24,422 nt of DNA from Deltaproteobacteria bacterium (GTDB lineage: Bacteria > CG2-30-53-67): NCBI GenBank assembly GCA_013151235.1, contig JAADIO010000009.1, forward strand, positions 1 to 24,422. Reading direction: 5' to 3'. The position numbers and the translations under genes were made by a program. Positions 6,006-19,878 of the stretch are shown piece by piece. The notes beneath the pieces were generated by a model that was given only the letters and a program-made list of their open reading frames with translations, searched no databases and was not told the DNA's origin. Positions within the stretch are counted from its first letter, which is position 1. The number at the start of each line of letters is the position of its first letter.

Positions 6006-6761
6006 TTATTTTTCGTTGTTCAGGGACCGGATATAGTTGATTACGTTCCATCGGTCCTCTTCGGAGGTCGTTGTTTTCCAGGCAGGCATGGCGCCCCGTC
6101 CTCTGGAGATCTTGTAGAAGATATCTCCATCCGGATGCATGCGGACCATCCAGCCGGTCAGGTCCGCCGGTTTGGGGTTGAGGCTGTCGGCCAGGGCGCC
6201 TGTTCCCTTTGCGTCCTTCCCGTGACAGATGATGCACCGTTGTTCGAAGATCGTTTTTCCCTTTGCGATGGAGTTCTTTGTTGCCTTCACGGGGTTGATC
6301 TTTTCCGCCGCTTCGGCCGGGGCCATCCAGTGGGACTCTCCCATCATGTGGTGATCTTCCTGTCCTTCACTTTTGTTTCCTTCCATTTCCATCTCATGGT
6401 GTTCCTCCTGATCCGTTTTATTTTCTTCGTGTTTCATCTTCATGCCGTGATGGGAGTCTTCCTTTGTTTTTTTGATGTATTTTGCAGGATCCTGTTCAAA
6501 GGCCTTCCGGTCGGCATCGCCGCAGAAGTAGTAGGTCTTCCCTTCGTATTCCATCTTGCCCCCGGCCGCCGTTTCGGGGTTAATCTTCATCCCGCAGACC
6601 GGGTCTGTCACGGTCTTGCCCATTGTTTTCTCCATCATCCCTTTCATGTTGTGTCCCTTCATTCCCTGCATCCCCCCTTCTTCCGCGGGGAGGAGGGTGC
6701 AAAAAGAGAGGGCCATAAGAATGGATAGGATTCCGGATAAGATCAGACTCTGCTTTTTCAT
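6006..6761 (-). CDS. Met/His-rich YHS domain-cytochrome c fusion, exported
   Basis: A 251-residue protein and the last gene of the copper-export cluster, 50 bases after cusA. The chosen start (MKKQSLIL) has AGGAGG 6 bases upstream; an in-frame ATG 33 bases earlier lacks such a site. Order of parts: signal peptide (1-about 26); Met-rich stretch 31-48 (MQGMKGHNMKGMMEKTM); YHS domain 51-96 with TDPVCGM and YYFCGDADRKAF; Met/His/Glu-rich linker 104-146 (HHGMKMKH, HHEMEME, HHMM); class I cytochrome c 160-250 with heme motif CIICH (176-180) and probable axial Met225 in GAMPAW. YHS domains and Met/His clusters bind Cu(I)/Ag(I) in many resistance systems. Inferred role: a periplasmic copper-binding electron carrier or a CusF substitute. 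The combination is unusual, and no assigned name is claimed. Confidence 0.85.
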   Translation of the reverse strand: MKKQSLILSGILSILMALSFCTLLPAEEGGMQGMKGHNMKGMMEKTMGKTVTDPVCGMKINPETAAGGKMEYEGKTYYFCGDADRKAFEQDPAKYIKKTKEDSHHGMKMKHEENKTDQEEHHEMEMEGNKSEGQEDHHMMGESHWMAPAEAAEKINPVKATKNSIAKGKTIFEQRCIICHGKDAKGTGALADSLNPKPADLTGWMVRMHPDGDIFYKISRGRGAMPAWKTTTSEEDRWNVINYIRSLNNEK

Positions 6762-6811
6762 TTTTGCCTCCTTGTTTGGTTTTCCTGTTCTCAATTTTTA
6801 ATTTTCAATCC

Positions 6812-9800
6812 CTAATTCCCGATTTTCGGTTCCGGGCCCCGAGTTCCCTGTCCCCGCCAGATGGCATAGATGGCGGGAATGACGATGAGGGTCAGGACCG
6901 TGGAGGTGACCATCCCGCCGATCATGGGGGCGGCGATTCGCCGCATGGTGTCGGCTCCGGCTCCATGCCCCCAGAAGAGCGGGAAGAGTCCGGCCATGAT
7001 CGCCATGACCGTCATCATCTTGGGACGGACCCGCTCCACGGCGCCGCTCATGACGGCGCTGTAGAGGTCGGTGAGGGAGAGGGGGCCGCCTTTTTCATGC
7101 AATTTTTCCTCATAGGCCTGATCGAGGTAGATCAGCATGACCACCCCCGTCTCCGCCGCCACACCGGCCAGGGCGATAAAGCCGACCCCGACGGCAATAC
7201 TCATATTATAGTGCAGCAAATGGAGGAACCAGACCCCCCCGACGATGGCGAAGGGGAGAGAGAGCATGACGATCAGACTCTCCGGCACGTTCCGGAAGTT
7301 CAGGTAGAGCAGAAGGAAGATGATCAGAAGCGTCACGGGGATCACAACCTTGAGGCGCTGATTGGCGCGTTCCATGTATTCGTACTGGCCCGACCAGACG
7401 ATGCTGTATCCGGGCGGCAGTGAGACCTCTTCACGAATGACCTTCTGCGCGTTTTTTACATAGGTTGCCACGTCACTGCTCTTTAAGTCCACATAAATCC
7501 AGGCCGTGCGCCGGGAGTTTTCGCTTTTGATCGAAGGCGGTCCCTGGTGAATCGAGATATCCGCCAACTGGGTGATGGGGACCTGTGCCCCTTGGGGGGT
7601 GGGGACCAGTATCCTTCTCAGTTGCTGCAGGGAGTTCCGGAATCCTCTGCCGTAACGGAGGTTGACGGGATAGCGTTCCAGCCCTTCCACTGTCTCCGTG
7701 ATGTTCATCCCACCCACGGCGGACTGGATCACATCCTCGACATCTCCTACGGTTAACCCGTAACGGGCCGCCTCCTTCCTCCGGATCTTATAGTCGAAGT
7801 AGTAACCGCCTACGACACGTTCCGAGTAGGCCGAGAGGGTCCCCGGCAGTTTGCGGACGATTGCCTCGATCTTCTTTCCCAGGTCGGAGAGAACCGAGAG
7901 ATCATCACCCATGATCTTGATCCCCACGGGGGTCTTGATTCCGGTGGAGAGCATGTCGATCCGGGTTTTGATCGGCATGGTCCAGGCATTGGTGACACCG
8001 GGGAACCGGATCGCCTGGTTGAGCTTGTGAATCAGTTCCTTGACCGTGATCGTCCGTTCCTCGGGCCAGATCTTGGCAAGCGGTTTCTTGAGGAAACCGG
8101 GCCAGGATGAAAACCACCGTTTTACCGGGATCTTCCGCCACTGGTCTTCCGGCTTCAGCATGATCGTGGTCTCCAGCATGGACAGCGGTGCCGGGTCGGT
8201 TGCGGTATCGGCCCGGCCGATCTTCCCGAAGACATGATGGACCTCGGGAAAGGTTTTAATGATCTTGTCGGTCTGTTGCAACAGTTCCTTGGCCTTGGTA
8301 ATTGAGATCCCCGGCAGGGTCGTCGGCATGTAGAGGAGGTCCCCTTCGTAAAGGGGAGGCATGAACTCCCCGCCGATCTTCTCGAGCGGAAAGAGGGTAT
8401 CGACCTTTTCCAGAACGGACTTCAGGAAAGGATTGTGCACCTTCTGCACCACGAGCCGGTTGAAAGGGAGCAGTGTCAGGATACAGAGAAGGGCGAGGAG
8501 AATCGTCGTCTTCCGGTACTTTAAAACCTTTGTGATGATCGGCCGATAGATCCAGATCAGAAAACGGTTCACCGGGTTTTTCTCTTCTTTTGCGACCTTT
8601 TGGGGCCAGAGGACGATAAAGATGATCGCGGCCGTGATCCCCGCGATGGGAAGGCTGAAGGCAGCGAGACCGCCCGTAAAAAGTTTCAGAACTCCCCACA
8701 GGAACAGGAAGGAGAGACCTCCTGCAAGGAGCGAAACGACCCGCTGTTTTCGTGTCGTCCAGTGGGACGGCAGGAGAGTCGTCCGGACAAAGTACCCCAT
8801 CATCACCGGAACCAGGGTCACGGAGAGAAGAGCGGCCGCCGCCATGGAGTAGGTCTTGGTGAAGGCGAGCGGTTTGAAAAGTCTTCCCTCCTGGGCCTGG
8901 AGGGTAAAAATCGGGAGGAAGGAGAGGGTAATGATCAAAAGAGAGAAGAAAAGGGCCGGCCCCACCTGTTTCGATGCGTCGAGGATAATCTCCCAGTGAT
9001 CTTTCTTCCCTTCGTCCCGTTCCAGGTGCTTGTGGGCGTTTTCGATCATGACGATGGCCGCATCGATCATCGCCCCGATGGCGATTGCGATTCCTCCCAG
9101 AGACATGATATTGGCATTCAGTCCTTGTCGGGACATGACGATGAAGGCCATCAGGATTCCGACCGGGAGCGTAAAGATTGCAACGAAGGCGGAACGGAAA
9201 TGGAGGAGAAAAATAATACAGACCAGGGCCACGACGATCGATTCCTCCACCAGTTTTTCCTTGAGAGTATCGACCGCCCGCTGGATCAGGCCGGAGCGAT
9301 CATAAACCGGGACGATTTCCACGCCTTTGGGAAGTCCTGCCTTCAACTCGGCCAGTTTCTTTTTTACGCGGTTGATTGTGGCCAAGGCGTTCTCGCCGTA
9401 CCGCATGATGACGACCCCGCCGGCTGTTTCCCCCTCTCCGTTCAGTTCGGCGATTCCCCGTCTCAGTTCCGGGCCGAGGTGTACGTCCGCGATATTCCGG
9501 ATCAGGACGGGGGTCCCGTTCTTGTCCGCGCCGACGGGGATGTTTTTGACATCCTCAATGGAATGTATATAACCCAGCCCGCGGACCATGTATTCGGTTT
9601 CGGCCATCTCGATCAACCGTCCCCCCACATCATTATTGGAGCGCTGTATGGCCTTTTTCACCTTGGAGAGGGGAATATTGTAGGCCAGGAGTTTGTTCGG
9701 GTCGACCTCCACCTGATACTGTTTGACATACCCCCCGATGGAGGCGACCTCGGAGACACCGGGTACGGCGGCCAACTGATACCGGAGATACCAGTCCTGG

Positions 9801-10276
9801 ATGCTGCGAAGTTTGGCCAAGTCATTCCGGCCTGTCTTGTCAACCAGGGCATATTCGTAGACCCACCCCACGCCGGTGGCATCGGGGCCGAGAGAGGGGG
9901 TGACCCCCGGCGGAAGTCTCTTGGCCGCATAATTCAGGTATTCCAGCACGCGGCTTCTGGCCCAGTAGAGGTCGGTCCCGTCTTCGAAAATAATATAGAC
10001 AAAGGAGAAGCCGAAGAAGGAGTATCCCCGCACCACCTTTGCGTAGGGCACGGCAAGCATGGCCGTGGTCAGGGGATAGGTAACCTGATCCTCAACGACC
10101 TGCGGCGCCTGGCCGGGATATTTTGTAAAGACGATGACCTGGACATCCGAAAGATCCGGGATCGCGTCGAGGGGGATCTTCGTCATCGTATAGGCACCCC
10201 AGAACAGGATAAAGGCTGTTCCGAGGATCACCAGAAAACGATTTTTAATGGAAAGTTCAATGATTTTTTCAAGCAT
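6812..10276 (-). CDS. cusA: CusA-type Cu(I)/Ag(I) RND efflux pump
   Basis: This 1154-residue heavy-metal RND transporter is the inner-membrane proton antiporter of a tripartite CusCBA exporter. Proton-relay Asp405 lies in GAMIDAAIVMIENAHKH, at the same number as in E. coli CusA. The three methionines of the E. coli Cu/Ag site (Met573, Met623, Met672) have equivalents at Met650 (LLYMPTTLPG), Met700 (PLSMLETTI) and Met775 (RIDMLSTGIK). That supports monovalent copper or silver over zinc/cobalt. It is about 107 residues longer than E. coli CusA (1047). The extra length falls at about 500-560 (two added hydrophobic segments), 606-632 and 714-738. AGGA lies 7 bases before ATG. It sits between cusB and the YHS-cytochrome gene, 44 bases after cusB, so co-transcription is likely. 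Confidence 0.93.
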   Translation of the reverse strand: MLEKIIELSIKNRFLVILGTAFILFWGAYTMTKIPLDAIPDLSDVQVIVFTKYPGQAPQVVEDQVTYPLTTAMLAVPYAKVVRGYSFFGFSFVYIIFEDGTDLYWARSRVLEYLNYAAKRLPPGVTPSLGPDATGVGWVYEYALVDKTGRNDLAKLRSIQDWYLRYQLAAVPGVSEVASIGGYVKQYQVEVDPNKLLAYNIPLSKVKKAIQRSNNDVGGRLIEMAETEYMVRGLGYIHSIEDVKNIPVGADKNGTPVLIRNIADVHLGPELRRGIAELNGEGETAGGVVIMRYGENALATINRVKKKLAELKAGLPKGVEIVPVYDRSGLIQRAVDTLKEKLVEESIVVALVCIIFLLHFRSAFVAIFTLPVGILMAFIVMSRQGLNANIMSLGGIAIAIGAMIDAAIVMIENAHKHLERDEGKKDHWEIILDASKQVGPALFFSLLIITLSFLPIFTLQAQEGRLFKPLAFTKTYSMAAAALLSVTLVPVMMGYFVRTTLLPSHWTTRKQRVVSLLAGGLSFLFLWGVLKLFTGGLAAFSLPIAGITAAIIFIVLWPQKVAKEEKNPVNRFLIWIYRPIITKVLKYRKTTILLALLCILTLLPFNRLVVQKVHNPFLKSVLEKVDTLFPLEKIGGEFMPPLYEGDLLYMPTTLPGISITKAKELLQQTDKIIKTFPEVHHVFGKIGRADTATDPAPLSMLETTIMLKPEDQWRKIPVKRWFSSWPGFLKKPLAKIWPEERTITVKELIHKLNQAIRFPGVTNAWTMPIKTRIDMLSTGIKTPVGIKIMGDDLSVLSDLGKKIEAIVRKLPGTLSAYSERVVGGYYFDYKIRRKEAARYGLTVGDVEDVIQSAVGGMNITETVEGLERYPVNLRYGRGFRNSLQQLRRILVPTPQGAQVPITQLADISIHQGPPSIKSENSRRTAWIYVDLKSSDVATYVKNAQKVIREEVSLPPGYSIVWSGQYEYMERANQRLKVVIPVTLLIIFLLLYLNFRNVPESLIVMLSLPFAIVGGVWFLHLLHYNMSIAVGVGFIALAGVAAETGVVMLIYLDQAYEEKLHEKGGPLSLTDLYSAVMSGAVERVRPKMMTVMAIMAGLFPLFWGHGAGADTMRRIAAPMIGGMVTSTVLTLIVIPAIYAIWRGQGTRGPEPKIGN

Positions 10277-10320
10277 ATTTTATCCTTGTTCTTCATGTCC
10301 TTCATGGTGAATAAGATTCT

Positions 10321-12087
10321 CTAATAAGAAATTTCGTTGCCGCAGTTCAGCATCTTCTTTCCCAGGTACGGGTTCTCCGCCGTTGTTCCTTTCTGCAACC
10401 ACGGTTCCTTGACCATGGGACAGTAGAAGATGGAGAGTCCCAGCGCCCTGGCGCCCTTCGGGTCCCGGTCCTTGACATAATCGGCCAAGGCTTGGCTGAT
10501 CGTCTTGAACCCCTTCCGGACGGTCTTGATATTTCCGGATAACAATTCGGGCGCAGAGACGGTCAGTGCCCTCGTGGTCCCGGCCAGGCTCCGGTCCTTG
10601 TCCGCGACCTTTATCTTCTCAGCGAGTGTTGCCATCTCCACGACCGAAGGTTTGATCCCTTCCAGGGTGTCGGACTTGAGTTTTCGCTGAATGACCAGGT
10701 AATCCTCCAGGATCCGCTCCATGGAGGTCCGGATCGTCTCCGGCAGAGGCGGGGCCGTCTTCATGCCCTTCATATTCTTCATCTCTTTCATTGCTGTTTT
10801 CTTTGCCGGAACTTTCTTTGCTTCCAACATCTTGTTGATCGCCTCTTTGAGATTGCTTTCGGAGTCGATCAGGAACTGTGCCGAGGTTACGACCCGTTCC
10901 CCTTCGGTCAGGCCGGAAAGAATCTGGTAATACCCTTCGCCCTCGGCGCCGAGCTTGACATCGCGGGGGAGAAACTTCCCTTCGCCCCGGCTGAGAATAA
11001 CAATGTTTTTCTCACCGGAACGAAGAATGGCTTCCTCCGGGATCACGAGCGTGGATTTCGATACCCTCGAACGGATCGAGACATTGGCATACATGTCCGG
11101 TTTCAGTTTCCAGTCCGGATTCCTGAATTCCATCCGGACCTTGACGGTTCGTGTCTTTTTGTCGAGAAAGGGGTAGATGTACGAGATCTTCCCCCGGTAC
11201 GCTCTTCCCGGAAGGTAGGAAAGAGTCATTTTTACATCCTGCCCCAAACGCAGCCAGGGAAGCTCATACTCATAGATGTCGGCATAGACCCAGACATCGG
11301 AGATGTCGGCGATCGTATAAAGATTCATCCCCGGTTTGACGTACATCCCCTCCTGTACCTTTTTATCAATGACCACGCCGCGGGTAGGGGAATGGAGAAC
11401 AAGGTCCTTCCTGATCTCGTTGCTCTTTTCGATCTGATCGATCTGCCGGGAGGTGATGTCGAAAAGTTCCAGCCGTTTCCGGGTGGAGGAGAGCAGGGTA
11501 TCCGCTCCTTCCGAAACGGTGGAAAAGGGGCTTGCACCGAGGGACTTTTTGTATTTCAATGCGAGCAGGTATTCCTGCTGGGTGGAGACCAACTCCGGGC
11601 TGTAGATGGAAAGAAGGGCGGTGCCCTTGTCGACATCCTGCCCGAGAAAATCGACGTAGAGTTTTTCTACCCACCCTTCCATTTTGGTATGAATATGTTC
11701 CACACGCCTTTCATCGTAGCCGACACGGCCCACGGTCCGGATAGTCCGGGAGAGCGCCCTTCGTTCGACCGGAGCGGTCCGGACACCGATGTCCTGCACG
11801 GTGACCGGATCGATTCTGATCGTACCCGGCTCGCTCTTGTCTTCCTCTCCTTCATAGACCGGGATCAGGTCCATTCCCATGGGAGACTTGCCCGGTTTGT
11901 CCCGGATATAAGTCGGGTCCATCGGGGCCTGCCAGTACTTGACCTTTCTGGCCTTCCGCCCTCCGTTTGCGGAACTCTTTCCCATGGCGGGGGATTTCTC
12001 CGGATGGGAAGTGCGCCCGAATTGGTAGCCGGTATAAAGCGTCGCTGCCAGGAGAATCAATATTAAGATCGGTTTTCGGATGTTCAT
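10321..12087 (-). CDS. cusB: CusB-type periplasmic adaptor with HMBD and C-terminal metal domain
   Basis: A 588-residue membrane-fusion protein that links CusA to the outer-membrane channel. One N-terminal membrane anchor (about 5-22) precedes a heavy-metal-binding domain (about 50-78, YWQAPMDPTY...GKSPMGMDLIPVYEGE). The usual adaptor core follows: beta-barrel, lipoyl and alpha-hairpin regions (about 88-425) with typical runs such as GWVEKLYVDFLGQ and SPTRGVVIDKKVQEGMYV. A Met-rich linker (about 432-446, MKEMKNMKGMK) joins a C-terminal DUF3347-like domain ending in FYCPMVKEPW...NPYLGKKMLNCG. E. coli CusB has 407 residues, so this copy has added metal-binding ends, as seen in relatives where CusF-like functions are fused. 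GAGGGGA lies 5 bases before ATG. The end domains suggest metal hand-over to CusA. Confidence 0.92.
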   Translation of the reverse strand: MNIRKPILILILLAATLYTGYQFGRTSHPEKSPAMGKSSANGGRKARKVKYWQAPMDPTYIRDKPGKSPMGMDLIPVYEGEEDKSEPGTIRIDPVTVQDIGVRTAPVERRALSRTIRTVGRVGYDERRVEHIHTKMEGWVEKLYVDFLGQDVDKGTALLSIYSPELVSTQQEYLLALKYKKSLGASPFSTVSEGADTLLSSTRKRLELFDITSRQIDQIEKSNEIRKDLVLHSPTRGVVIDKKVQEGMYVKPGMNLYTIADISDVWVYADIYEYELPWLRLGQDVKMTLSYLPGRAYRGKISYIYPFLDKKTRTVKVRMEFRNPDWKLKPDMYANVSIRSRVSKSTLVIPEEAILRSGEKNIVILSRGEGKFLPRDVKLGAEGEGYYQILSGLTEGERVVTSAQFLIDSESNLKEAINKMLEAKKVPAKKTAMKEMKNMKGMKTAPPLPETIRTSMERILEDYLVIQRKLKSDTLEGIKPSVVEMATLAEKIKVADKDRSLAGTTRALTVSAPELLSGNIKTVRKGFKTISQALADYVKDRDPKGARALGLSIFYCPMVKEPWLQKGTTAENPYLGKKMLNCGNEISY

Positions 12088-12147
12088 AATTTCCCCTCAT
12101 GTTTGTTCATCGCGTTTCCAGGCATTGCGAAAAAGGACCGTTTCCCG

Positions 12148-13422
12148 TTAAAAGAGTCTTTCATCAACAATCGCCTCCATCTTGGCCAATTGCTTCTCGT
12201 AGTCGGTCAAAGTGCGGGCATAGGCCAATTCGAATTTCAACAGGGTAAGCTGGTTGTCAACGAGGGTCAGAAAATCAACCTTGTTGACCTGGTACCCTGA
12301 AATAGCGGAGTCCAGGGACTGCCGGGCCTGGGGCAGAAACCCTTTTTTGTAAAGCCGGATCAGGTTTTTCTCCTTTGCGATCTCGGCAAACGTATCTTGA
12401 ATCGCAAAGAGAACCCGGTTCTTCACTTCGTTATAGGTCGACTCCCTCCGGGCCAGTTCCGCCTGGGATTCGATCACCCCCTGGCGCTGTTTCCTTTTGG
12501 CATAGAGCGGAATGTTAACGGTGACAAAGGCGCTGAACCAGTCATTGCCGGGAAAGTTGGCCCCCTCTTCCCGCTGCTTGTAGGTGACGGCGAAGTTGAA
12601 GTCGGGCAGGATGGCCTTTTCGGCAAAGTGAAGGTCCGCCTCGCTCCCTTCAATCAGTTTCTGCGCCGCCTGCAGAGGCAGACTCTTTTTGAGGGCCTTT
12701 GTTTCCAGTTCCTTCAGGGTGAAAGGAAAAGGCGTGGCGGGCCGCTCCTCCGGATCCGCCAGCGGTGTCTCCGGCGCCCGGTTGAGGAGTGTATTGATCC
12801 GGGCCTTTGCCGTCTCTTTCTTTTGATGAAGGACAATCAGTTCATTGATAATCCCGGAGAGTTCCACCTGGGCCTTCAGCACATCCTGCTGCAGACCCTT
12901 CCCGACGGAATACTTGGTTGCGGCCACGTCGGCCAGGCCGGAGAGAAGGTCTCGGTTTCGTTTGTTGATCCGGATGGACTCATTGATAAAGAGGAGATCG
13001 AAATAGGCGTCCTTGACCCGCCGGATGATCTCCGTGACCCGGTCCCGGTAGAGGGCATCCATGGAGTCGGCCCGGAGAGATGCCGCCTTTTCCTTCAGGG
13101 CCAGTTTGCCCGGAAAGGGAAACTTTTGGGAGAGGCCGATCACTTTTGACGTCGGCAGAAAGGCGTCGAACGAGGGATTGGAAACCGGGACGTTATCGAC
13201 GCCGATGGTCAGCATGGGATCGGGAAGGGCGCCCGCCTGCGGGGTCGCCGCCCGGAAGGATTCTACCCGGTTTTTGAGGGTACGGATCTCGGGATTTGCC
13301 TTGACGGCCTCATCGATCAGTACCTTCAGTGTGAGTCTCTCCTGTCCGTATGAGACCGCCGGGAACACCCCGGTTAGAAAGATTCCCCATATGGAAATTG
13401 CAAGCAGTAAACCCTGTGCCAT
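12148..13422 (-). CDS. cusC: TolC-family outer membrane efflux protein (CusC-like)
   Basis: This 424-residue outer-membrane channel should complete the CusCBA pump. A signal peptide covers about 1-26 (hydrophobic GLLLAISIWGIFLTGVF, then AVSYG). The mature part has the two repeated helical halves of the OEP family, with characteristic stretches such as AVKANPEIRTLKNRVESF near the start and a long coiled helix near the C-terminus (QLTLLKFELAYARTLTDYEK). There is no lipobox, so it is probably not a lipoprotein like E. coli CusC. The start used here has AGGAG 7 bases upstream; an ATG 27 bases earlier has no such site. It is the first gene after a near-consensus sigma70 promoter and is followed by cusB after 60 bases. 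Confidence 0.9.
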   Translation of the reverse strand: MAQGLLLAISIWGIFLTGVFPAVSYGQERLTLKVLIDEAVKANPEIRTLKNRVESFRAATPQAGALPDPMLTIGVDNVPVSNPSFDAFLPTSKVIGLSQKFPFPGKLALKEKAASLRADSMDALYRDRVTEIIRRVKDAYFDLLFINESIRINKRNRDLLSGLADVAATKYSVGKGLQQDVLKAQVELSGIINELIVLHQKKETAKARINTLLNRAPETPLADPEERPATPFPFTLKELETKALKKSLPLQAAQKLIEGSEADLHFAEKAILPDFNFAVTYKQREEGANFPGNDWFSAFVTVNIPLYAKRKQRQGVIESQAELARRESTYNEVKNRVLFAIQDTFAEIAKEKNLIRLYKKGFLPQARQSLDSAISGYQVNKVDFLTLVDNQLTLLKFELAYARTLTDYEKQLAKMEAIVDERLF

Positions 13423-13436
13423 TCTGCGCTCCTTTC

Positions 13437-13622
13437 TTAAGTGCAGCATGGATAAAAAATGTCTGGAATTTCAAACAGTTTGAAGTTCTTTCCGAAGATA
13501 TCCCAGAAGAGGGACCCTGTCAATTCTCCGGAGCAGTTCTCCCCGGGAATCCCGGGAGAGGACAAACCGGTCCTGCTGGGAGAAAAAAGGTTCGGGATGG
13601 TGTACTCGGCATCAGCCTTCAT
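13437..13622 (-). CDS. Doubtful 61-codon ORF before cusC
   Basis: An open frame in the gap between the 144-residue gene and cusC. GAGG lies 5 bases before its ATG, and the product is rich in Ser/Pro/Gly and ends with CCT. Against it, the cusC promoter and two GC-rich dyads lie inside it, and there is no recognisable domain or signal peptide. It may be chance in a regulatory spacer. Confidence 0.2.
   Translation of the reverse strand: MKADAEYTIPNLFSPSRTGLSSPGIPGENCSGELTGSLFWDIFGKNFKLFEIPDIFYPCCT
13495..13523 (-). promoter_or_regulatory. Near-consensus sigma70 promoter for cusCBA
   Basis: On the minus strand TTGACA (13523-13518), exactly 17 bases, then TATCTT (13500-13495). The transcript would start near 13488, leaving a leader of about 65 bases before cusC. 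Two dyads lie immediately upstream: CTCCGGAG (13526-13533) and a CCCGGG-AAT-CCCGGG centred repeat with TCTC/AGA flanks (13538-13559). Either could be an operator. The spacer is 17 rather than 19-20, so a MerR/CueR-type mechanism is not suggested. Confidence 0.6.
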
Positions 13623-14851: not shown

Positions 14852-15271
14852 TTACAGAGAGATCGAACCCTTTGCTTCCGCCGTGAGTTCAATCAGGCTC
14901 ATCGCCCCCGCCGCCCGGACGCCCGGTAGAAGATCCGCTTCCGTGATCTTCTTGTTCGCCATGGTCTGGGTGCAACACTGAATCTCGACGCCCAGGTCGA
15001 GGGCTTCCTCGATCCGTTGGGTGAGGGTTGGGACCCCCGGTAGGGGGGTCTCCTCTTTTTCAATGGCTCCTTGAACCATGAGTTCTACCCCTGCCTGAAT
15101 ACAGTAGAGGACCGTCCGGTAATCGGCGGCGGCGGCGAGGCTTGCGAACATGAAGGCCGAGCGGGCCCGGGCGATATTATCAAAGCCGGAGGCCAGGAGC
15201 ACGACATAGAGGTCGGCCATACTCTTGCTCCCGGCATGATCGGTGGACCGTTCTTTTTCCTCGTTGATCAT
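14852..15271 (-). CDS. DsrE/DsrF-like sulfur-relay family protein
   Basis: A 139-residue protein of the DsrE/TusD-like fold. After a 17-residue charged N-terminus comes the typical first strand and helix (ADLYVVLLASGFDNIARARSAFMF split at about 19-42). Later come Cys57, paired Cys99-Cys100 in VEIQCCTQTM, and the family's C-terminal GVRAAGAMSLIELTAEA. The second position of such proteins (GV+I.AC..S.) carries the persulfide-accepting Cys in DsrE, so Cys99/Cys100 are the likely active residues. The start at the ATGA overlap with the OsmC gene has GGAGGTG 3 bases before it; an internal ATG at codon 18 is a weaker alternative. Tight coupling with an OsmC protein suggests joint work on persulfides or organic peroxides. 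Cytoplasmic. Confidence 0.78.
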   Translation of the reverse strand: MINEEKERSTDHAGSKSMADLYVVLLASGFDNIARARSAFMFASLAAAADYRTVLYCIQAGVELMVQGAIEKEETPLPGVPTLTQRIEEALDLGVEIQCCTQTMANKKITEADLLPGVRAAGAMSLIELTAEAKGSISL

Positions 15272-15798
15272 TGCACCTCCAGTTTTGTCTCGATCGCCAC
15301 CGGTCGACTCAGGGTGACCCCGACGGGAGAGGTTTTAATCACATGTTCATGGAGATCCTGCAGCGCCTGTGCATCTGCTTTCCCTTTGATCTTGACGGTT
15401 GCCTTGATATTCTTGTAGCCCGGAAGTTTGTCCATGTTCAGTTCTTCCGGAGGCTCCAGGCCGAGGAAACCCGGCAGATCGATCTCCCCTTCCAGGTCGA
15501 TATTGATGTCTTCCAGTTCGATTCCCCGGGCCGCGGCGTTCATGGCATAGCCGATGGTCAGGCAGGCGCCGTAGGCCTGAAGGACCATCTCGACCGGGTT
15601 GGCCGCCGTGTCGGTTCCGCAGAGCATCTCCGGTTCGTCGGCCAGGAGGGTGAAGTCTCGAGAGCAGGTCCAGACCTTGAATCCTCCTTTCCATTTTGTG
15701 TTGGCCTTCCAGACGGTCTTGCCAGCGGTCCAATTCTGTTTGACCCCTTCTACGGTTGCTCCCAATTTTTCCAGTTCAAGTCCATTGAGCATCGTCAT
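15268..15798 (-). CDS. OsmC/Ohr-family protein lacking the second Cys
   Basis: A 176-residue OsmC-family protein, first gene of a two-gene operon with the DsrE-like protein (4-base ATGA overlap). The family helix NPVEMVLQAYGACLTIGYAM (68-87) provides the peroxidatic Cys79. The position that usually holds the second Cys in the C-P-V motif reads TSPVGVTL, so it is Ser157. Cys45 and Cys60 are additional. Classical OsmC/Ohr enzymes reduce organic hydroperoxides with two cysteines. A one-Cys member may use another thiol partner, possibly the DsrE-like protein (inference). GGAGGT lies about 8 bases before the ATG. A perfect sigma54 -24/-12 element lies about 60 bases upstream, so expression should depend on RpoN and the neighbouring activator. 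Confidence 0.85.
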   Translation of the reverse strand: MTMLNGLELEKLGATVEGVKQNWTAGKTVWKANTKWKGGFKVWTCSRDFTLLADEPEMLCGTDTAANPVEMVLQAYGACLTIGYAMNAAARGIELEDINIDLEGEIDLPGFLGLEPPEELNMDKLPGYKNIKATVKIKGKADAQALQDLHEHVIKTSPVGVTLSRPVAIETKLEVQ

Positions 15799-15858
15799 GA
15801 TGATACCTCCTTTTCGGTTGTAAGGATGAATGAAACATAAATTAACGAGAATAGATTC

Positions 15859-15874
15859 TGCAAGTCTTGTACCA
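15859..15874 (-). promoter_or_regulatory. Sigma54 (-24/-12) promoter of the osmC-dsrE operon
   Basis: The minus strand reads TGGTACAAGACTTGCA, a full match to TGGYRYRN4TTGCW with GG and GC in correct spacing. Transcription should begin near 15848, leaving about 50 bases before the OsmC start codon. The remainder of the 383-base gap 15799-16181 holds the sites listed next and no gene. Confidence 0.8.
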
Positions 15875-15948
15875 ACACTTTCGCAAGATCAGTCCGATTG
15901 TTGTCCGGGAAATGTCCAGACCGAAGAGTATCTATAAATATCGAAAGA

Positions 15949-15961
15949 TAACCGGTTGATT
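15949..15961 (-). promoter_or_regulatory. IHF-like DNA-bending site
   Basis: On the minus strand AATCAACCGGTTA matches the IHF consensus WATCAANNNNTTR at every fixed position. It sits in an A/T-rich stretch between the sigma54 promoter (75 bases away) and the upstream dyads, which is where IHF bends DNA to bring enhancer-bound activator to the promoter. Confidence 0.5.
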
Positions 15962-16082
15962 TATAGAGTCATTATTGTGTTGGGATTTTCCGGAGAGAAG
16001 AGCTTCCTTGAGAATACTTTGTGCAAAGAGAAGATCTGTTTTGTCTTTGAAAGAGGGAGGATGAGATATTTTAGTGCAAATG

Positions 16083-16095
16083 TTGCAAATTGCAA
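16083..16095. promoter_or_regulatory. Upstream activator site 1 (TTGCAA-N-TTGCAA)
   Basis: TTGCAA, one base, TTGCAA: two self-complementary hexamers forming a 13-base dyad. Extra TGCAA half-sites flank it (TGCAA at 16075-16079, TTTTGC at 16098-16103). About 240 bases upstream of the predicted sigma54 start, it is a likely binding site for the adjacent activator. Confidence 0.5.
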
Positions 16096-16166
16096 TGTTT
16101 TGCGGGGTTCTGTTGGGGTGGAACGCCGCGACCGGTTCCCTCTGCCCATGTAAGATGATGGCGACG

Positions 16167-16183
16167 GATTGCAAGTTGCAATC
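16167..16183. promoter_or_regulatory. Upstream activator site 2 (17-base palindrome)
   Basis: GATTGCAAGTTGCAATC is a perfect dyad around one central base and repeats the TTGCAA-N-TTGCAA core of site 1, 86 bases away. It overlaps the last two bases counted from the activator's stop codon, so it must be read together with that gene's end. Confidence 0.5.
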
Positions 16184-17687
16184 ATTGATGTTTCTTCAGC
16201 TTTCTCCAAAGGGTCGAAGTGTCGATCTTTAAAAGTTTCGCTGCCTTCTTTTTGTTTCCCTGCGTCATGTTCAGTACCTTCAGGATATGGGTCTTTTCCA
16301 TCGCATCGAGGGACCAGTTTCCCTCCGGAAGATTCTTCTGAAGGGTGAGAGCGGTCGGGAGGTCTTCCGGCTCAATCGTATCGCCTTCCGTGACGGCGAT
16401 GGCCCGTTCAATGGCGTTCTCCAGTTCCCGCACGTTCCCGGGCCAGGGGTGACGTAGAAGGAGTTCCATGGTCTCTCCGGAGACCCGCCGGATATTTTTC
16501 CCCGTTCTTTTTGCAAAGCGTTCCAGAAAATACCGGGCGAGGAGCGGAATATCTTCCCCTCTTTCCCGAAGAGGCGGAAGTGCAATCCGAATGACATTCA
16601 ACCGGTAGAAGAGATCTTCCCGGAATGTCTTCGATTCCACCGCTTCGGACAGGTCCTTATTGGTCGCGGCGATGATCCGGACATCGACGGTGACGGGGGT
16701 TGTGCTACCGACCTTGAAGAAGGTCCCGTCCTGGAGGACTCGTAGAAGTTTGGCCTGCAGGGCGGGGCTCATCGCCTCCACTTCATCCAGGAACAAAGAT
16801 CCGCCGTGGGCCTCTTCAAATAATCCTTTCCGTTTTGATGTGGCACCGGTGAAGGCCCCCCGGGTATGTCCGAAGAACTCCGATTCGAGAAGGGATTCGG
16901 GAAAGGCGGCACAGTTGACGGAAATGAAGGGCTTCTCCCTGCGGAAACTGTTGTAGTGGATCGCCCGGGCGATCAGTTCCTTGCCGGTCCCGCTCTCCCC
17001 GGAAATGAGGATGCTCGACGGCATGTCGGTGATCTTTCGAACCAGTTTGAGGACCTCTTCCATCCGGTCACTGCAGGAGATAATCCCCCGGAAATTGTAG
17101 TAGCGCCGCTGCAGGTCCGCCTTGTTCCGGACCTTTTCGAAAATCTGTGCATTCTCGATGGCCAGGCTCAACGGAACCGTGGCGGCCCGGAGGATGCTGA
17201 GCAGATCCGGGTCGGGGGTGTAAGGGGTATGGGTAATGACGCAGAGGACGCCGACGACCTTTCCCTTGGCAGCCAGGGGGAGCCCGGCATAGAATTCCAT
17301 TTCTTCCCGTCGGATCGCATCCCGGGTAAAGCGGGGATCCTCCGATGCATGGGAATCGATGATGACCTCCTGATTGCATTCGGCGATTTTGCCGCACATG
17401 CACTCCCCGATCTTGACCTTCTTTTCGGAGAGGTCCCTGACTGCGGAATCGCTGAGATTCCGGAAGGAGACGGGGACCATCTCCATGGTGGAATCATTGA
17501 TGACGTAGATCACGCCGGAATCGACCCCCATGAAATCGATGATCCGGGAGAGTGCCTCATCGAGGATCGGTTTGAGTTCCAGGGTCTGCCCAACGGTGAG
17601 GGCGATCTCATAGAGGACGGACAGGCTTCGGTACTGTCGTTCCAGGTCATTGACCGATGCGGGAAGAGATGGAGTTTCATGATGCAT
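16182..17687 (-). CDS. GAF-AAA+-Fis sigma54-dependent activator
   Basis: A 501-residue enhancer-binding protein that likely activates the downstream osmC-dsrE promoter. An N-terminal GAF sensor domain (about 20-185) contains a cysteine group Cys96, Cys98, Cys104 (GECMCGKIAEC). The AAA+ domain (about 200-430) has Walker A GESGTGKE (230-237), an intact sigma54 loop GAFTGA (277-282), Walker B GGSLFLDE (295-302) and the RLNVIRIALPPLRER arginine-finger region. A Fis-type HTH ends the protein (GNKKKAAKLLKIDTSTLWRK). The layout is that of NifA, FhlA and NorR relatives without a receiver domain, so a small ligand or redox signal rather than phosphorylation is expected. The start chosen has AGGAG 8 bases upstream; an ATG 42 bases earlier lacks one. 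Confidence 0.88.
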   Translation of the reverse strand: MHHETPSLPASVNDLERQYRSLSVLYEIALTVGQTLELKPILDEALSRIIDFMGVDSGVIYVINDSTMEMVPVSFRNLSDSAVRDLSEKKVKIGECMCGKIAECNQEVIIDSHASEDPRFTRDAIRREEMEFYAGLPLAAKGKVVGVLCVITHTPYTPDPDLLSILRAATVPLSLAIENAQIFEKVRNKADLQRRYYNFRGIISCSDRMEEVLKLVRKITDMPSSILISGESGTGKELIARAIHYNSFRREKPFISVNCAAFPESLLESEFFGHTRGAFTGATSKRKGLFEEAHGGSLFLDEVEAMSPALQAKLLRVLQDGTFFKVGSTTPVTVDVRIIAATNKDLSEAVESKTFREDLFYRLNVIRIALPPLRERGEDIPLLARYFLERFAKRTGKNIRRVSGETMELLLRHPWPGNVRELENAIERAIAVTEGDTIEPEDLPTALTLQKNLPEGNWSLDAMEKTHILKVLNMTQGNKKKAAKLLKIDTSTLWRKLKKHQ

Positions 17688-17845: not shown

Positions 17846-18700
17846 ATGTGGAACTATTCGCAAAAGATGATGGATCATTTCCTGAATCCCCGCAACGCCG
17901 GGGAGATTGAGAACGCCGATGCCGTGGCGGAAGTGGGGAACATCACCTGCGGCGATGCCCTCCGGCTGACCCTGAAGGTCGACGAAGACGAGCGGATCGT
18001 CGATGCGAAATTCCAGACCTTCGGGTGCGGGAGCGCCATTGCCTCTTCGTCGGCCCTGACGGAGATGATCAAGGGGAAGACCCTCGATGAAGCGGCCAAG
18101 GTTACGAACCGGGATATTGCCGCTTACCTCGACGGACTTCCCCCGGAAAAGATGCACTGCTCCGTCATGGGGATGGAGGCCCTGGAGGCGGCAATCAATA
18201 ACTACCGGGGAATCGAGACGCCGGCGGAAGACCGGGAAGGGGAGATCGTCTGCAAGTGTTTCGGCGTGACCGACAAGAAGATTGAACGGGTCGTTCGGGA
18301 GAACAACCTGAAGACCGTTGATGACGTAACCCACTACTGCAAGGCCGGCGGGGGGTGTGGGGAGTGCAAGCCGCAAATCGCCGGGATCCTGGAGCGGGTC
18401 CGTCACGAGATGCGGCCCCCGTCCGGTGTGGAGCGGCGCGTCCGATCCAGGGGTAAACTGACCAACATCGAGAAGATGCAGCGGATCATGGAGACCCTTG
18501 AACGGGAGATCCGGCCCGCCCTGAATGCCGACGGCGGTGATATCGAACTGATTGATATCGACGGCGACCGGGTGCAGGTCGCCCTCCGGGGAAGTTGTGC
18601 CGGGTGTGCCGCATCATCAGTTACCCTGAAGATGAGTGTCGAGGCGAAGCTCCGGGAGTTTGTTTCCGAAGAGCTTACCGTAGAAGAGGTGGAGTCATGA
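17846..18700 (+). CDS. nifU: NifU, three-domain Fe-S scaffold protein
   Basis: This 284-residue full-length NifU assembles Fe-S clusters from sulfur delivered by NifS. The IscU-like domain (1-about 122) has scaffold cysteines Cys35 (NITCGD, with Asp37), Cys61 (FGCGSA) and Cys105 (KMHCSV). The central BFD-like ferredoxin domain (about 133-185) has Cys136, Cys138, Cys171 and Cys174 for a permanent [2Fe-2S] cluster. The C-terminal Nfu domain (about 207-284) has the CAGC pair Cys251/Cys254. This is the Azotobacter-type layout. No nitrogenase genes are in view, so it may be the general Fe-S system, as in several anaerobes and epsilonproteobacteria. GGGAGG lies 10 bases before ATG, and the stop overlaps the nifS start (ATGA). 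Confidence 0.94.
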   Translation: MWNYSQKMMDHFLNPRNAGEIENADAVAEVGNITCGDALRLTLKVDEDERIVDAKFQTFGCGSAIASSSALTEMIKGKTLDEAAKVTNRDIAAYLDGLPPEKMHCSVMGMEALEAAINNYRGIETPAEDREGEIVCKCFGVTDKKIERVVRENNLKTVDDVTHYCKAGGGCGECKPQIAGILERVRHEMRPPSGVERRVRSRGKLTNIEKMQRIMETLEREIRPALNADGGDIELIDIDGDRVQVALRGSCAGCAASSVTLKMSVEAKLREFVSEELTVEEVES

Positions 18701-19878
18701 AAACGGTCTACATGGACAACAATGCCACAACGAAGGTTGATCCTCAGGTACTCGATGCGATGCTTCCTTATTTTACCGACCTCTACGGGAACCCCTCCAG
18801 TATGCATCTCTTCGGCGGGCAGGTCGGGGAGGCCATGACCCGTGCCCGGCGGCAGGTGGCCGATCTGATCGGCGCCGATCCTTCAGAGATCCTTTTCACG
18901 AGCTGTGGTACCGAGAGCAACAACACGGCGATCCGGGGGACCCTGAAGTCCTACCCGGAGAAGCATCACATCGTGACGACCCGGGTGGAACATCCCGCGG
19001 TGCTGAACCTTTGTCGGGAACTGGCCCGGGAAGGGTGCAGCGTAACGGAACTTCCCGTCGACCGGCAGGGGGAACTTGATCTAGACCAGCTCCGGGATGC
19101 CATCACACCCGGGACGGCGATCGTCTCCGTTATGTACGCCAACAACGAGACAGGGGTGATCTTTCCCGTAGAGGAGATTGCAGAAATCGTTCACGAGAAG
19201 GGAGCTATTTTTCATTGCGATGCCGTGCAGGCCGTGGGGAAGGTCGGAATCGACATGGCAAAGATCCGGATCGATCTCCTTGCCATCTCCGGCCACAAAC
19301 TCCACGCTTCCAAAGGGATCGGTGTTCTTTACGTTCGGAAGGGAACGCGTTTCCGCCCCTTCCTCATCGGGGGGCACCAGGAACAGGGGCGGCGGGGCGG
19401 GACGGAAAACGTCCCCTCCATCATCGGCCTGGGCCGGGCCTGTGTGTTGGCTGCGGAACAGATGGAAGAGGAAAACCGGCGGGTCCGGGCCCTCCGGGAC
19501 CGCCTGGAACAGGGACTCCTGGAGGCCGTACCCTACGCCTACATCAACGGTCATCCCGATCACCGTCTTCCGAATACGACGAACATCAGCTTCGAATATA
19601 TCGAAGGGGAGGGGATCCTGCTGCTCATGAGCCGGGAAGGGATCGCCGCTTCTTCCGGTTCGGCCTGCACCTCGGGATCGTTGGAGCCCTCCCACGTTCT
19701 CCGGGCTATGGGGGTTCCCTATACCTGTGCTCACGGATCGATCCGCTTCTCCCTCAGCCGGTTCAACACCGAGGAAGAGGTTGACTACATCCTCGAAAAA
19801 CTCCCTTTCATTATCAGCCGACTTCGGGAGCTTTCCCCTTATTGGAAGCGGCGTGACAGTTCGCCCTTACTCAAATAG
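18697..19878 (+). CDS. nifS: NifS/IscS cysteine desulfurase
   Basis: A 393-residue PLP enzyme that removes sulfur from cysteine and hands the persulfide to NifU. PLP lysine is Lys201 in ISGHKLHASKGIG. His99 (VEHPAVL) stacks on the cofactor, and Asp175 with Gln178 (HCDAVQA) contact it. The catalytic cysteine is Cys324 in the flexible loop SSGSACTSGSLEPSHVL, making it a class I desulfurase. The start is the ATG overlapping the nifU stop by 4 bases; upstream in-frame codons would lie inside nifU and are not used. Translational coupling ensures balanced production. No clear terminator follows; a near-palindrome around TCCCGGGA (19924-19941) is the only hairpin in the 81-base gap to the convergent RNase R gene. 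Confidence 0.95.
   Translation: MKTVYMDNNATTKVDPQVLDAMLPYFTDLYGNPSSMHLFGGQVGEAMTRARRQVADLIGADPSEILFTSCGTESNNTAIRGTLKSYPEKHHIVTTRVEHPAVLNLCRELAREGCSVTELPVDRQGELDLDQLRDAITPGTAIVSVMYANNETGVIFPVEEIAEIVHEKGAIFHCDAVQAVGKVGIDMAKIRIDLLAISGHKLHASKGIGVLYVRKGTRFRPFLIGGHQEQGRRGGTENVPSIIGLGRACVLAAEQMEEENRRVRALRDRLEQGLLEAVPYAYINGHPDHRLPNTTNISFEYIEGEGILLLMSREGIAASSGSACTSGSLEPSHVLRAMGVPYTCAHGSIRFSLSRFNTEEEVDYILEKLPFIISRLRELSPYWKRRDSSPLLK

Follow-up and report, generated by a model that had tools for sequence, protein, structure and literature searches.

A predicted sigma54 regulon in which a GAF-domain activator, paired dyads and a -24/-12 promoter accompany an OsmC-DsrE gene pair

The window, by which we mean the whole stretch of 24,422 nucleotides that was analysed, carries three adjoining genes on its minus strand. 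Gene calls and Pfam matches identified a sigma54-dependent activator of 501 amino acids (16182..17687) with the layout GAF - AAA+ - Fis-type HTH, an osmC-like gene encoding 176 amino acids (15268..15798; PF02566, 1.3e-18), and a dsrE-like gene encoding 139 amino acids (14852..15271; PF02635, 5.8e-13) that overlaps osmC by four bases (ATGA). An earlier note on this DNA had described an activator with intact GAFTGA beside an OsmC-DsrE pair, and this was borne out. Along the minus strand the activator is followed by dyad 1, dyad 2, an IHF-like site, a -24/-12 promoter, osmC and dsrE, the order and orientation which that note had put forward as an enhancer-dependent arrangement. Because the window genome encodes one rpoN, three HU/IHF-family proteins and about 34 matches to the activator query, sigma54 control is available there. 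Divergent from the activator lie nifU and a nifS-like cysteine desulfurase gene (17846-19878); nifU is retained in G001, a second species of the genus, but a search of the Nitrospirota loci did not find it next to the triad. Downstream of dsrE and on the same strand, positions 6006-13449 hold a Cus-type RND efflux set (CusA-, CusB- and CusC-like) and a c-type cytochrome/YHS-like protein.

Exact copies of TTGCAANTTGCAA occur at 16083-16095 and 16169-16181, where two TTGCAA-N-TTGCAA sites had been claimed. Elsewhere in the 2,620,954-base genome there are none, so that the total is two, and the reversed-pattern control gave 0. The letters of the claimed motif thus stand, but relatives of the locus define the site differently, as ATTGCA-N3-TGCAAT. 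So delimited, dyad 1 (ATTGCAACTTGCAAT, 16168..16182, minus strand), the proposed activator binding site, shares its first A with the TGA stop codon of the activator, and dyad 2 (ATTGCAATTTGCAAC, 16082..16096, minus strand), a proposed second activator site, lies 86 bp past it. The spacer between them (16097..16167, minus strand) includes a 22-base block, GTCGCGGCGTTCCACCCCAACA, which is identical in the aligned G001 sequence and matches no named element.

The proposed promoter, TGGTACAAGACTTGCA (15859..15874, minus strand), confirms the claimed perfect match to TGGYRYRN4TTGCW; it contains GG-N10-GC in the correct direction and is the sole perfect -24/-12 match in the 24.4 kb window. Between enhancer and promoter, on the same strand, the IHF-like site AATCAACCGGTTA (15949..15961) agrees exactly with the consensus, again as claimed. 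When one mismatch was allowed, the window contained four -24/-12 matches against 0.88 expected; exact IHF matches numbered two against 0.55 expected. A lone match of either kind therefore carries little weight, and comparison had to decide.

An OsmC search of species genomes led to a Nitrospirae MAG locus, L065, which carries this triad as well, at 54-75% identity. A DsrE profile was run over Nitrospirota genomes and the regions around its matches were examined, which gave a set of 23 loci with activator, osmC and dsrE in that order: the window, G001 and 21 from Nitrospirota. In one further locus (L249) the order is activator, dsrE, osmC. Searching for adjacent GAF-sigma54 activator and osmC-dsrE genes and comparing their gaps thus added 22 loci, most of which keep the sites. 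Failure of the dyads and the -24/-12 element to be conserved in homologous loci had been named as the result that would speak against a regulon; the outcome was the opposite, both being conserved.

A near-perfect ATTGCA-N3-TGCAAT lies at an offset of -1 to +15 from the activator stop codon in 20 of the 23 loci; L184, L242 and L246 have no good dyad there. The second dyad follows 76-91 bp past the first in most loci and about 31 bp past it in three. Equivalents of the -24/-12 element precede osmC in most loci, two of them with three mismatches, and L242 has no good promoter. Fifteen activator-osmC gaps contain 21 dyads with at most one mismatch, against 0.05 expected and a maximum of two in 200 shuffles, and 13 of these gaps have a sense-strand -24/-12 site with at most two mismatches, against 0.13 expected and none on the antisense strand, figures which, the loci being mutually related, are not to be read as probabilities. 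What counts instead is that the sites have been kept while the sequence around them has decayed: apart from a few closer pairs, most gaps are about 40% identical, roughly the level that an alignment of unrelated sequences yields. In G001, whose OsmC is 91% and whose activator is 87% identical to that of the window, the gap, 383 bp long in the window, is 64% identical, and both dyads, the IHF core and a -24/-12 block of 17 bases stand out as islands of identity. The IHF-like site is not conserved at the equivalent position in most other loci; the proposed IHF bending is thus supported within the genus and is not general beyond it. In five of 15 loci (L171, L178, L180, L182 and L183) a divergent -24/-12 site, facing away, lies 21-62 bp upstream of the activator start, with MTHFR or a third OsmC gene downstream in some; the window has no such divergent sigma54 promoter.

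The motifs might be chance matches, with transcription of the operon starting at an ordinary promoter or running on from the activator gene; in favour of this, it is not unusual for 24 kb to contain one IHF or -24/-12 match. The joint conservation over 23 loci, with dyads and promoters so far above expectation, and the absence of reversed-pattern matches from 15 genomes refute this explanation and leave it a negligible probability. Since genes and sites recur in about twenty deeply diverged genomes, we take the regulon to be real. The proposal of an enhancer-dependent sigma54 regulon is strongly supported by the conserved sites, and activator, dyads, -24/-12 promoter and osmC-dsrE very probably constitute one compact regulatory unit, as judged from genes, sites, their order, their conservation and protein-site co-variation, all read from sequence.

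The activator combines GAF (2.8e-13), Sigma54_activat (PF00158, 3.2e-71), AAA_lid and HTH_8 (1.2e-11) domains. Its AAA+ domain with GAFTGA, its C-terminal Fis-type HTH and the inverted-repeat sites upstream of the target are those of a sigma54 enhancer-binding protein. Orthologues adjoining osmC in the 22 other loci are 54-87% identical to it, and no relatives were found in viral contigs. All 15 activators in the alignment keep Cys96, Cys98 and Cys149 of the GAF domain (CxC plus one); where these have CxC, the closest full-length paralogue encoded in the genome has GEGVTGK. The invariant cysteines make the domain a candidate thiol or metal sensor. A structure prediction for the GAF domain from three input sequences had a pLDDT of 35, too low to give its fold.

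Does the activator itself read the dyads? Under the N3 pattern, two loci (L179 and L180) first appeared to lack dyads. They are in fact the sole loci with N4 dyads, perfect and one base wider, and their activators are the sole ones that carry four additional residues immediately ahead of the HTH. N4 dyads thus go with activators of the longer linker, which links protein to site. The two are not clear sisters on the tree, and their co-variation may nevertheless reflect one shared ancestral change and hence a single event. The genome of L179 (G366) also has a neighbouring second activator with a short linker, and an N3 dyad pair. The match of linker to dyad spacing, although noticed post hoc, is the best evidence that the activator family itself reads the dyads.

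The dyads might instead bind another factor, a repressor or a different sigma54 activator, with the adjacent activator controlling something else. The genome's roughly 34 activator matches would allow this, and a location at a gene's 3' end would be compatible with repression or autoregulation. Yet the sites accompany the activator at its stop codon in 20 of 23 loci, their spacing shifts with the linker of the activator's own HTH, and a -24/-12 promoter comes after them. We consider this alternative very unlikely.

In 15 genomes there are 23 exact dyads, of which about 14 lie in the activator-osmC gap; the reversed-pattern control gave 0. A good, correctly placed promoter accompanies off-locus dyads at one place only. 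There, in G366 (L210:2884-3097; G366:C195), an N3 dyad pair 91 bp apart is followed by TGGCATTATAATTGCT before a gene for a URO-D-type methyltransferase, a putative second member of the regulon. The description of the regulon as self-contained therefore holds for the window genome, where all dyads are at the locus, and fails in G366. Where off-locus dyads lack a promoter, as in TypA, ahead of GAPDH and elsewhere, they were taken as chance. In other genomes some lie close to genes of YeeE and TauE type, which were named by eye; as regulon sites these are no more than suggestive.

We then considered what the two target proteins might do. OsmC/Ohr peroxidases use two catalytic cysteines, an active-site one and a resolving one (CPV). 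The window protein has the OsmC domain, and Cys60 and Cys79 are invariant in the alignment, but the usual resolving cysteine is Ser157 in 23 of 23 sequences, so the catalytic pair is incomplete and a standard two-cysteine OsmC peroxidase is unlikely. The protein was also rejected as a member of NF041052 (53.3 against a cut-off of 95). In DsrE, Cys99-Cys100 is invariant in the 23-locus alignment. Its nearest solved structure is 3mc3 (2.1e-10), and Cys100 aligns with the conserved DsrE active-site cysteine; it thus has the fold and the conserved active-site cysteine of DsrE sulfur carriers. 3mc3 is a Sulfolobus DsrE3A, a group that carries thiosulfate on cysteine (PMC4175335). The Cys-X7-Cys of DsrE3A is absent, residue 108 being Lys.

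A peroxide-induced OsmC peroxidase system would account for the OsmC fold and the invariant active-site Cys79. It is nonetheless improbable, given that serine replaces the second catalytic cysteine in every locus and that the constant partner is a DsrE of the persulfide/thiosulfonate-carrier type. The peroxide-detoxifying OsmC that was one option in the earlier note has accordingly become less likely. Its suggestion of a thiol, persulfide or peroxide signal survives in part: the three invariant GAF cysteines keep a thiol, persulfide or metal sensor possible, while peroxide is weakened.

Genomic neighbours point in two directions. A diverged OsmC2-DsrE2 pair (L187:3149-4960, and L186), or DsrE alone (L173), lies with SsuABC-like transporters and a TauE/SafE-type permease (identified by eye), and in both L186 and L187 OsmC2 has a -24/-12 site ahead of it. 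In L064, TusA-like and Hdr-like genes flank osmC (TusA by eye), with a URO-D-like gene nearby. MTHFR, URO-D and CobW genes flank several Nitrospirota triad loci. The loss of the OsmC cysteine, the likeness to DsrE3A and the sulfur-gene neighbours favour a sulfur relay that operates during the use of reduced or organic sulfur, a reading on which our confidence is evenly balanced. Alternatively, OsmC and DsrE might be accessories in a regulon that serves one-carbon/corrinoid metabolism of methyl compounds, methylated sulfur or others, rather than oxidant or persulfide defence. MTHFR, the URO-D-type methyltransferase and CobW beside the triad, the dyad pair and -24/-12 site before the URO-D gene in G366, and the URO-D-like gene near osmC in L064 all agree with such a role. 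However, none of MTHFR, URO-D or CobW is near the window operon, and the constant targets are osmC and dsrE only, which makes the one-carbon role doubtful, although of appreciable probability.

The window lineage is probably not Nitrospirota: in a listing of its nearest genomes, relatedness drops from the same class straight to the same domain, although hundreds of Nitrospirota genomes were covered. The activators of its genus branch within those of Nitrospirota on a midpoint-rooted tree, and close OsmC relatives were found in none of the other genera examined of its family and class. On the simplest reading, genes and sites would have moved jointly by transfer. A sister OsmC subfamily, hosted by Nitrospira, Desulfobacterales, Verrucomicrobia, Acidobacteria and Ignavibacteriales, has different GAF/PAS sigma54 activators, mostly of about 650 amino acids, just upstream (L099, L101-L105, L107, L108, L110, L112, L114, L116, L120-L122, L125, L126, L134, L138 and L140). 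These activators were rejected as orthologues, their 40-52% identity being confined for the most part to the AAA+ region, and their loci were set aside, having no dyads and weaker promoters in a different position. Regulation of OsmC genes by sigma54 may be widespread.

We infer the following course of binding, activation and looping. The one-component activator, made from 17687..16182 and expressed from its own putative promoter, would bind as dimers to the two ATTGCA-N3-TGCAAT repeats, which lie at its stop codon and shortly past it. A signal reaching the GAF domain would cause the AAA+ domain to hexamerise, and the hexamer would contact sigma54-RNA polymerase at -24/-12 (15874-15859) through DNA looping, probably aided in the window genus by IHF at 15949-15961. 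The opened promoter would yield osmC and dsrE as one message. As to chemistry and signal we can only guess: OsmC-DsrE most likely moves or repairs sulfur bound to proteins or small molecules (persulfide/thiosulfonate chemistry) in the setting of reduced or organic sulfur use, and a species of sulfur or thiol, perceived via the invariant CxC...C cysteines, most likely acts as the signal. It is possible, and we propose it tentatively, that the activators form a new sulfur-responsive sigma54 regulator family whose GAF CxC...C senses sulfane sulfur or thiols, a portable switch that passes from one phylum to another along with its sites and an operon for OsmC-DsrE sulfur relay.

The searchable open literature yielded no account of a regulon like this, in agreement with the earlier note, and the regulon seems previously undescribed there. 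Literature on OsmC with DsrE or sigma54 consisted of selenoprotein surveys and unrelated papers, and OsmC and DsrE are absent from the main text of a D. vulgaris sigma54 regulome paper and of a 2025 multi-phylum sigma54 survey. The locus provides a function-ready assignment of activator, binding motif, promoter and target for a sigma54 activator family whose hosts are largely uncultured Nitrospirota and relatives, for which no described sigma54 regulon of this kind was found. Through it, one regulator, and hence one signal, becomes attached to DsrE and an OsmC of the one-cysteine type, a pair that is poorly understood. The correspondence of linker length with dyad spacing gives a simple way to probe how sites are measured by activators of the Fis type.

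Compared with known systems, the window OsmC belongs to the OsmC/Ohr family as a sister to NF041052 (OsmC-related (seleno)protein) and the solved 2opl. It shares the OsmC domain and the active-site cysteine in GACLT, and departs from the family in having SPV, with the resolving cysteine lost, the extra invariant Cys60 and an N-terminal extension. DsrE resembles the DsrE3A carriers of Metallosphaera cuprina and Sulfolobus (3MC3) in its closest solved structure and its aligned Cys100 (PMC4175335). It differs in having Cys99-Cys100 in place of Cys-X7-Cys, and OsmC rather than TusA/Hdr as partner. The activator shares with one-component GAF-type sigma54 activators the GAF - AAA+ (GAFTGA) - Fis HTH layout, the upstream dyads and, as we infer for this locus, IHF-assisted looping to a -24/-12 promoter. 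Among these the closest curated model is NifA (TIGR01817), and its score of 392.9 bits against a cut-off of 528.85 led us to reject that identity. The NifA dyad is TGT-N10-ACA; unlike NifA, the window activator has a different dyad, different targets and a CxC motif in its GAF domain.
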